A stretch of DNA of 33,119 bases from Patescibacteria group bacterium (GTDB taxonomy: Bacteria > Patescibacteriota > Minisyncoccia > Phycocordibacterales > DATDWN01): positions 1 through 33,119 of the forward strand of contig JACDEV010000002.1 of NCBI GenBank assembly GCA_013816135.1, written 5' to 3'. Every line of letters begins with the position of its first letter. The first letter of the stretch is position 1. The notes beneath the pieces were generated by a model. It saw only the letters and a program-made list of their open reading frames with translations, searched no databases and was not told the DNA's origin. Of this stretch, positions 9,753 through 20,408 are shown in pieces. Made by a program: the position numbers and the translations under genes.

Positions 9753-9877
9753 TTTGATTTGGAGATTTAGATGCAATTCAAGGCGAAAAGGTAAATGAGC
9801 GAGAAGGCGTACTGCTAGTACGGTGACGAGAACATTTACTTTTTCAACGCAGAAGTGCGCTAAATATACAAATCAAA
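9753..9877 (+). repeat. Structured palindromic element, copy 1 (candidate RNA/REP-like family)
   Basis: P1 TTTGATTTG/CAAATCAAA, ATTTAG/CTAAAT and TGCA/TGCG; CAAGGCG; P2 GTAAATG/CATTTAC; GCGAGAAG; P3 CGTACT-GCT-AGTACG; GTGACGAGAA; CAACGCAGA. Matches copy 2 in motif order and spacing. Confidence 0.75.
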
Positions 9878-9880
9878 CTT

Positions 9881-11659
9881 ATGGAGATTCGAAATATTGC
9901 AATCATAGCCCATGTGGACCACGGAAAGACTACCCTTACTGACGCCCTTATGCGCCAGACAGGAATGGTAACTGCCGAAGGCGTAACCATGGACTCAAAT
10001 GCTCTTGAACTTGAGCGAGGTATTACTATTTATGCAAAGAACACTTCAGTCTATTACCCTCCAAAAGACTCAGGGCGAGAGGTTACAAAGATCAATATCG
10101 TAGATACTCCAGGCCACTCTGACTTCGGTTCAGAGGTAGAGCGTGTGCTCAGATCAATTGATACTGTGCTTCTTTTAGTGGATGCTCAGGAAGGACCTAT
10201 GCCACAAACTCGATTCGTACTTAAGAAGTCTCTTGAACTTGGATTAAAACCTATCGTTATAGTAAACAAAATAGATAAGCCCGCAGCACGACCTGACGAT
10301 GTTCATGAAATGGTTCTTGAACTTTTCTTGGAACTAGGAGCAAATGACGAACAACTAGACTTTACTACTGTTTTTGCTATCGGCAGAGACGGAATTGCAA
10401 AAATGAAACTGACAGATGACTCAAAAGATCTAACTCCCCTTTTGGAAACTATTTTAAGAGAAGTGCCAGCAGCAACCGGAGACAAAAATCTTCCTGCAAG
10501 AATGCAGTCTTTCAATCTCGCTTATGACAACTTCCTTGGACGACTAGCTGTTTGCCGAATGTACGAAGGAACTATTCACAATGGAGACACTGTGTTTGTT
10601 AAGCAACATGATGGTAAGACAGTTTCAGGAAAACTTACCAAGCTTTTCAGTTTCGAAGGAATCAAGCGTGTTGAGACTCAGGAAGCTGTAGCGGGAGACA
10701 TTGTGATGATCGCTGGTCTTCCTACTGTTTATATCGGAGATACTATCTGTAAAGACGAAAATGCAGAATCTTTGCCATCAATTAACATCGATGAGCCAAC
10801 AATTTCCCTAAACTTCCTAGTAAACGACTCTCCCTTTGCAGGACGAGAAGGAAAATTCGTAACAGGTCGCCAGATTCGAGATAGACTCGAAAAAGAATTG
10901 GAGGTAAACGTCGGTTTGAGAATTGATTGGAACAATAATGAATTCTTTACTGTATATGGTCGTGGAGAACTCCATATTGCTATCCTACTAGAAAACATGA
11001 GACGTGAAGGTTTTGAACTTCAAGTATCACAGCCACAGGTAATTATAAAAGAAGTAGACGGCGTTAAAACAGAACCTTTTGAAGAAGTCACTGTAGATGT
11101 GTCAGATAGCATGGCTAGTGCAGTTATTGCTCGACTGACAGAGAGAAAAGGTTTGCTTATGAATGTAAAGCAAGGACATGGATCTCAAAGACTGACTTTT
11201 GAAATACCTACTCGAGGACTACTTGGATACAAAGGCCAATTTGTTATCGACACAAAAGGAAATGGAATTCTTTCATCTAGATTTATTGAATTCAGAGAAT
11301 ACGTTGGTGAAATAAAGAGAACAAGTGTTGGTTCAATGGTTTCAATGAACACCGGAAAGGTTTTGGCTTTTGCATTGGACAATCTCCAACAGCGAGGAAC
11401 TTTATATTTGGACCCTGGAACAGAAGTCTATGAAGGAATGGTTATCGGAAATGTTTCCAAAGGTGAAGACTTGTTTGTAAATCCAACAAAGGGTAAGCAA
11501 CTAACAAACATGCGAGCATCCGGATCAGACGGAACAGTTTATTTGGCAGCAACTATGAAACTGGATATTGAAAAAGCTATGGAAATTATGTCGGGAGATG
11601 AATATATTGAAATCACACCGAAATCTGTTCGCCTTCGAAAGAAAGCAATGAAGAAATAA
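9881..11659 (+). CDS. typA: TypA/BipA ribosome-associated GTPase
   Basis: IRNIAIIAHVDHGKTTLTDALMRQ, DTPGHSDFGSEVERVL, NKIDKPAARP, conserved TypA C-terminal half. Confidence 0.97.
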   Translation: MEIRNIAIIAHVDHGKTTLTDALMRQTGMVTAEGVTMDSNALELERGITIYAKNTSVYYPPKDSGREVTKINIVDTPGHSDFGSEVERVLRSIDTVLLLVDAQEGPMPQTRFVLKKSLELGLKPIVIVNKIDKPAARPDDVHEMVLELFLELGANDEQLDFTTVFAIGRDGIAKMKLTDDSKDLTPLLETILREVPAATGDKNLPARMQSFNLAYDNFLGRLAVCRMYEGTIHNGDTVFVKQHDGKTVSGKLTKLFSFEGIKRVETQEAVAGDIVMIAGLPTVYIGDTICKDENAESLPSINIDEPTISLNFLVNDSPFAGREGKFVTGRQIRDRLEKELEVNVGLRIDWNNNEFFTVYGRGELHIAILLENMRREGFELQVSQPQVIIKEVDGVKTEPFEEVTVDVSDSMASAVIARLTERKGLLMNVKQGHGSQRLTFEIPTRGLLGYKGQFVIDTKGNGILSSRFIEFREYVGEIKRTSVGSMVSMNTGKVLAFALDNLQQRGTLYLDPGTEVYEGMVIGNVSKGEDLFVNPTKGKQLTNMRASGSDGTVYLAATMKLDIEKAMEIMSGDEYIEITPKSVRLRKKAMKK

Positions 11660-20226: not shown

Positions 20227-20268
20227 AACTATCAAAAAAAGCTGCAGTTGGGGCTTTTTTTGATAGTT
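20227..20268. terminator. Long bidirectional hairpin in the helicase-rpoD intergenic region
   Basis: AACTATCAAAAAAAGC-TGCAGTTGGG-GCTTTTTTTGATAGTT, 16-bp perfect stem. Confidence 0.75.
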
Positions 20269-20291
20269 CTAAAAAATATGGTGTAATGAAA

Positions 20292-20408
20292 CTCGGAGGA
20301 TTTTTGCTTAAGGTCAAGGCGGAATGAGAAAATGCGAGAAGCCGTATTGAACATACGGTGACGAGAATTTTTGAATTCCAACGCAGAGATTGAGTAAAAA
20401 GACCCGAG
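20292..20408 (+). repeat. Structured palindromic element, copy 2
   Basis: P1 CTCGG/CCGAG and TTTTTGCTTA/TGAGTAAAAA; CAAGGCG; P2 GAAT..AAAAT/ATTTT..ATTC; GCGAGAAG; P3 CCGTAT-TGAAC-ATACGG; GTGACGAGAA; CAACGCAGA. Confidence 0.75.

Follow-up and report, generated by a model that had tools for sequence, protein, structure and literature searches.

The two hairpins that we analysed, one upstream of typA and one beside rpoD in the window (the whole stretch of 33,119 nucleotides), very probably belong to a non-autonomous palindromic transposable element family, MITE-like and resembling ERIC and NEMIS; this genome has about 29 copies, and relatives occur across Patescibacteria. The family consists of mobile elements of ∼120-180 bases, previously unnamed, that are spread through the phylum. 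The original prediction had described a structured element family in two copies, one of them upstream of typA. The element is not a two-copy structured RNA tied to typA but a dispersed mobile palindrome with near-identical copies at unrelated genes, and its relatives in the phylum have inverted repeats at their termini and target duplications of 5 bp.

Two copies of a structured palindrome

The features of the two copies are as follows.

9753..9877, + strand: element copy 1, whole hairpin (model core 9771-9859, E 3.5e-18); its 3' (right) end lies 3 nt upstream of the typA start codon
9753..9761, + strand: copy 1, P1 outer arm, 5' side (TTTGATTTG), partner CAAATCAAA at 9869-9877; same pairing in a fold with longer flanks (locus L179)
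9869..9877, + strand: copy 1, P1 outer arm, 3' side (CAAATCAAA), from sequence and fold
9779..9785, + strand: CAAGGCG, conserved internal-loop block, 5' strand of the outer loop
9799..9806, + strand: GCGAGAAG, conserved block, 5' strand of the inner GA-rich loop (GCGAGGAG in other copies)
9808..9822, + strand: apical hairpin P3, CGTAC-TGCTA-GTACG, from sequence and fold
9823..9832, + strand: GTGACGAGAA, conserved block, 3' strand of the inner GA-rich loop
9845..9853, + strand: CAACGCAGA, conserved block, 3' strand of the outer loop, from sequence
9881..11659, + strand: typA/bipA, start codon adjoining copy 1; the typA start is also abutted in the relatives G006 and G008
20292..20408, + strand: element copy 2, whole hairpin (model core 20307-20393, E 3.5e-20); its right (3') end lies 3 nt off the reversed rpoD stop codon
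20412..21695, - strand: rpoD-type sigma-70 gene (regions 1.1-4), stop codon adjoining copy 2, from its open reading frame

Base-by-base comparison confirmed the positions of the four predicted blocks, which follow the same order in both copies and in copy 2 all lie inside 20292-20408. The helices P1, P2 and P3 differ between the copies yet pair, as had been described, with compensating changes such as CGTAC/GTACG in P3 of copy 1 and CGTAT/ATACG in P3 of copy 2. When GCGAGAAG or GCGAGGAG is set against GTGACGAGAA, G.A and A.G mismatches flanked by standard pairs appear, and the arrangement suggests that the GA-rich loop may form tandem sheared pairs. The + strand folded with z = -5.6 in copy 1 and -6.8 in copy 2 (0 of 200 shuffles as good for either), while the - strand folded more weakly (z = -4.1 and -2.2, respectively). 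The exact three-block pattern occurs at two places in the genome, copies 1 and 2 only, and a reversed-pattern control at none. Since the rpoD stop codon on the - strand abuts copy 2, the folded strand of this copy is antisense to rpoD mRNA. Past copy 2, at 20230-20270 of the window, lies a terminator-like palindrome (CTATCAAAAAAAGC...GCTTTTTTTGATAG); hence, copy 2 stands between the rpoD stop codon and a likely terminator, as is seen at tuf.

Distribution in Patescibacteria

A covariance-model search of this genome and other Patescibacteria for further copies had been proposed, and it proved productive. A model of the 88-nt core of the element found 28-29 copies in the window's genome and 4-31 copies per genome in all 17 genomes of the bacterial family (E <= 0.001). 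A second model, built from 105 copies and run on 380 sampled Patescibacteria genomes, detected the element in 47 of them (E <= 1e-5), and exact-pattern searches returned additional copies in other genomes of the genus. As the prediction had stated, the element cannot be given an Rfam name: no family reached its gathering threshold, and the best sub-threshold matches were generic miRNA precursor hairpins. A loose pattern scan of collections of genome contigs and viral contigs gave chance matches, three of which passed a weak hairpin check and none of which was element-like. Our literature search, with subscription journals mostly outside its coverage, found no account of the element in Patescibacteria and the terminal repeat in no relevant paper.

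Dispersal, ends and target duplication

The closest copy by similarity was in the same genome for 63 of the 171 copies, where 12.9 were expected. One relative (G005) has several copies that are 93-97% identical, each beside unrelated genes. The likeness of near-identical copies stops at the hairpin ends with no shared flank, and their terminal arms vary with pairing kept. In distant families, the same core is present in most elements bounded by TAGGACTTACGC...GCGTAAGTCCTA, which are near-identical within a genome. These elements are mostly 160-220 bp long (range 95-269) with a terminal repeat of 12 bp; the hairpins of the window's family measure about 120-125 bp. The TAGGACTTACGC-bounded form had no match in phage records or viral contigs.

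An exact 5-bp direct repeat was found outside the TAGGACTTACGC...GCGTAAGTCCTA ends of 25 of 38 copies (0.43 expected), and repeats of 2, 3, 4 and 6 bp were near background in the same copies. A target duplication with a fixed length of 5 bp is a signature of DDE-type transposition. No such duplication was detectable in the window's family, and the case for transposition there therefore rests on dispersal and on the related ends, for which the consensus is RACTT...AAGTY. TA was present in register at both ends in 54 of 128 copies of the window's family, compared with 5-11 in flank controls. These TA ends prompted us to consider an IS630/Tc1-type TA duplication, which was rejected because in young copies the TA is within the terminal repeat and the duplication is 5 bp, and because the DDE_3 element of G008 has other ends. 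Three features by which MITEs are recognized are present: the elements are short and non-coding with terminal inverted repeats (those with TAGGACTTACGC in the relatives, hairpins in the window's family), the related families have the fixed-length target duplication, and near-identical copies are dispersed at unrelated sites.

In three genomes (G186, e.g. loci L389-L405; G296; G312), TAGGACTTACGC-bounded elements went through a recent burst. Several contigs of these genomes terminate in an element copy, indicating that the assemblies break at the element.

Position at gene ends

We oriented all copies with the folded strand as + and counted a boundary as matched when it lay within -8 to +12 nt, using open reading frames, without a trained gene finder, as gene calls. 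Of 171 copies, 94 had the right end at the stop codon of an antisense gene, compared with 4 that had the left end at a stop codon; for start codons, the counts were 18 for the right end (sense genes) and 6 for the left end. In the window's family alone, 87 right ends and 3 left ends were at stop codons (p 2e-22). The distance to the stop codon was 0-5 nt for 57 copies and dropped to 3 copies at 6-9 nt. Young copies in distant families had a weaker bias: 13 right ends and 3 left ends lay no more than 30 nt from a stop codon. Orientation at nusA differs between genomes; G000 (L226) has the right end of the element at the start codon and G013 (L189) the left end.

In the window's genome, copies lie next to, among others, tuf (on both sides), fusA, rpsG, rplB, rplJ, nusA, nusG and genes for an HU-type and a LexA-like protein, as well as rplC, which we identified by eye from its start sequence and which had no Pfam match at 1e-10. 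Judged by eye, translation genes appear enriched among the neighbours. Several boundaries are occupied in more than one genome, often by different subfamilies of the element. At the tuf stop codon, the element is present in some genomes, between the stop codon and a terminator-like hairpin, and the site is empty in others. We considered and rejected a promoter within the element or ahead of it, as there was no excess of -10-like boxes upstream and no common flank. Upstream of tuf, five genomes (G002, G003, G005, G010 and G016; loci L348, L350, L352, L354 and L356) carry another palindrome, ∼GTTCC.AAAATT...TTTTTGGAGTTTCC, which apparently is a different repeat family.

Covariation and the constrained strand

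The predicted combination of conserved loops and covarying helices was borne out by strong covariation of the interior across the phylum. Among 29 distinct copies of the window's genome, 90% of pair cells held standard pairs (67% when shuffled) and 27 of 29 pairs had changes on both sides; none of 500 shuffles matched the observed values. In 95 further copies, standard pairs made up 91.6% of pair cells, compared with 71.0% when shuffled and 35-44% with the pairing slid, and 28 of 29 pairs changed on both sides. The covariation score was 0.51, against 0.16 for shuffled alignments (0 of 500 shuffles).

Because the core alignments were fitted to the model, the outer arms, which lie outside it, provide the cleanest test of which strand folds. 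A G.T mismatch is a pair if the + strand folds, and an A.C mismatch is one if the - strand folds. The outer arms contained 109 G.T and 38 A.C mismatches, with 54% G.T in out-of-register controls; in stop-side copies only, the numbers were 69 and 18 (p 3e-8). The excess of G.T over A.C thus marks the + strand as the constrained one. Together, covariation and wobble asymmetry show a constraint on how the interior of the + strand folds. In 167 of 171 copies, the + strand also gives the better fold, under both RNA and DNA parameters, and with this agreement the sequence alone cannot separate RNA from single-stranded DNA. As the 3' end is mostly at antisense stop codons, the constrained strand is mostly outside the mRNA of the adjoining gene.

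Search for a transposase

An autonomous element with matching terminal repeats commonly, though not necessarily, accompanies a MITE. We searched for genes that might mobilize the element and found no transposase for it. TnpB (PF07282) was present in none of the 17 family genomes, and with no TnpB-like nuclease in them an IS200/IS605 omega RNA was ruled out. DDE_3 was absent from 16 of the 17. The DDE_3 gene of the remaining genome (G008) was rejected as the mobilizer because it has its own terminal repeats, TAGTAGAACGTTCTTAAAATA, which are unrelated to those of the element; it belongs to an IS630-type element with an open transposase frame (L388:730-1986). In a search confined to exact TAGGACTTACGC ends and to the assembled sequence of 13 genomes, no pair lay 1-3 kb apart; the transposase families covered were DDE_3, Y1 and TnpB. 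Y1 transposases are encoded in 12 of the 17 family genomes. Y1_Tnp was found neither in the window's genome nor in several others that carry copies. Y1/RAYT-like genes of ∼200-290 aa (L157:2250-2882 and loci L190-L219) are common in the relatives and missing from the window's genome.

Relation to known elements and alternative explanations

Rickettsia palindromic elements (RPE) are palindromes of 100-150 bp in small genomes and are known inside reading frames. The element has a similar size and small-genome setting, but its copies are at gene ends. ERIC, NEMIS/Correia, RUP and RPE are known MITEs of bacteria, 100-200 bp in length, that form long stem-loops and end in TA (PMC2229807). ERIC/IRU is likewise a dispersed, intergenic, non-autonomous imperfect palindrome of ∼127 bp with a long stem-loop and TA ends (PMC2229807); compared by description rather than by sequence, our element differs in its occurrence in another phylum, the 5-bp duplication of its relatives and its strong anchoring to stop codons in one orientation. 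NEMIS/Correia and RUP share the size (∼100-160 bp), terminal inverted repeats, target duplication and TA ends, but their terminal repeats are 24 and 9 bp long (PMC2229807), whereas the relatives of our element have 12-bp repeats, 5-bp duplications and an interior that covaries across the phylum.

REPs are defined as hairpins of 20-40 bp with an unpaired GTAG or CGTC tag (PMC3733652). Membership in such a REP/RAYT system is very unlikely, even though REPs, too, are intergenic palindromes, frequently lying no more than 20 bp from ORF ends and sometimes providing the stop codon (PMC3733652), and though a Y1-like gene shares a contig with copies in G006. The element, at ∼120-180 bp, is 3-5 times longer and its ∼120-bp hairpin does not have the tagged 20-40 bp form; its relatives have target duplications; and the association with Y1 transposases failed, as RAYT-like genes had no systematic element alongside (1 clear match in 30 loci) and the element is abundant in genomes without a Y1 transposase. 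We also doubt that the element is a cis-acting structured RNA, a leader or 3'UTR that regulates or protects the transcripts of neighbouring translation genes. The strong covariation, the conserved loops, the copies near stops or starts of typA, tuf, fusA, nusA, nusG, rplB, rplJ, rpsG and others, and the arrangement at tuf would all fit such a role. However, the majority of copies lie antisense to the adjoining gene, whereas the wobble asymmetry marks the + strand as constrained; both flanking genes are antisense to this strand in 71 of 98 stop-side copies, where the folded strand is not within the gene's transcript (the start-side minority, e.g. copy 1, differs). The different subfamilies or empty sites at orthologous positions and the lack of excess upstream -10-like boxes also argue against it.

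Equally doubtful is mobilization as a single-stranded DNA hairpin whose folded strand a recombinase would read, in the manner of attC or HUH systems. Integron attC sites are imperfect hairpins beside stop codons whose antisense strand folds, and the element shares the fixed orientation at stops and the folding antisense strand, in addition to having conserved internal loops. We considered attC identity for these reasons and rejected it, as we saw no gene arrays and the neighbours are housekeeping genes. Moreover, the 5-bp duplications and paired terminal repeats of the relatives point to a DDE-type transposase, and neither the window's genome nor G005, despite near-identical copies in the latter, has a Y1 transposase. 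Somewhat less unlikely is that the covariation arose by template-switch correction of a quasi-palindrome, with one arm copied from the other, rather than by selection on the fold; such correction is known in bacteria and would be compatible with mobility. The terminal arms of near-identical copies, which differ but remain paired, fit this explanation, which predicts neither the conserved unpaired loops across the phylum nor the asymmetry between G.T and A.C. The proposal of a selected RNA fold or single-stranded DNA hairpin stands in part: the wobble asymmetry is consistent with a single strand that folds, and some of the covariation may be attributable to template switching.

A model for insertion and persistence

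We favour a mobile MITE-like element, on whose terminal inverted repeats (TAGRACTT...) a transposase supplied in trans would act. Insertion in the related families duplicates 5 bp of an A+T-rich target, and the persisting copies of the window's family are flush with gene ends, mostly just past the stop codon and with the stable-folding strand antisense to the gene. The cause that we favour is that A+T-rich targets would often contain stop codons, and that the opposite orientation might be selected against, as the stabler hairpin would then enter the mRNA beside the stop codon. Selection against this orientation is suggested because REPs at most 15 nt from a stop codon were reported to stall ribosomes (work cited in PMC12306157). 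The folded single strand would most likely be recognized during mobilization or maintenance of the element.

Some observations sit uneasily with this model. Random insertion followed by selection does not obviously account for the sharp peak 0-6 nt from the stop codon, selection on orientation does not fit the start-codon copies well, and a simple MITE would not usually have a conserved interior. Directed insertion is therefore a possibility. We tentatively suggest, as a reading well short of likely, a transposable element found throughout Patescibacteria, with an interior under selection to fold on one strand only, as single-stranded DNA or antisense transcript, and with insertion machinery that might read gene boundaries and place one defined end flush with the stop codons of highly expressed genes.

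With this family, Patescibacteria, which have very small genomes, gain an abundant and recently active element with defined ends, a target duplication and a searchable model. It raises the questions of why one end is 0-6 nt from stop codons with the orientation fixed, and why the fold of one strand is kept in an element that would be expected to need no interior. Hairpins beside ribosomal or translation-factor genes in Patescibacteria should be checked for membership in the family before they are called riboswitches or leaders. At three loci (L347, upstream of tuf in G001, L273 and L393), we observed short internal-deletion forms that have the same ends and are missing the full conserved core.
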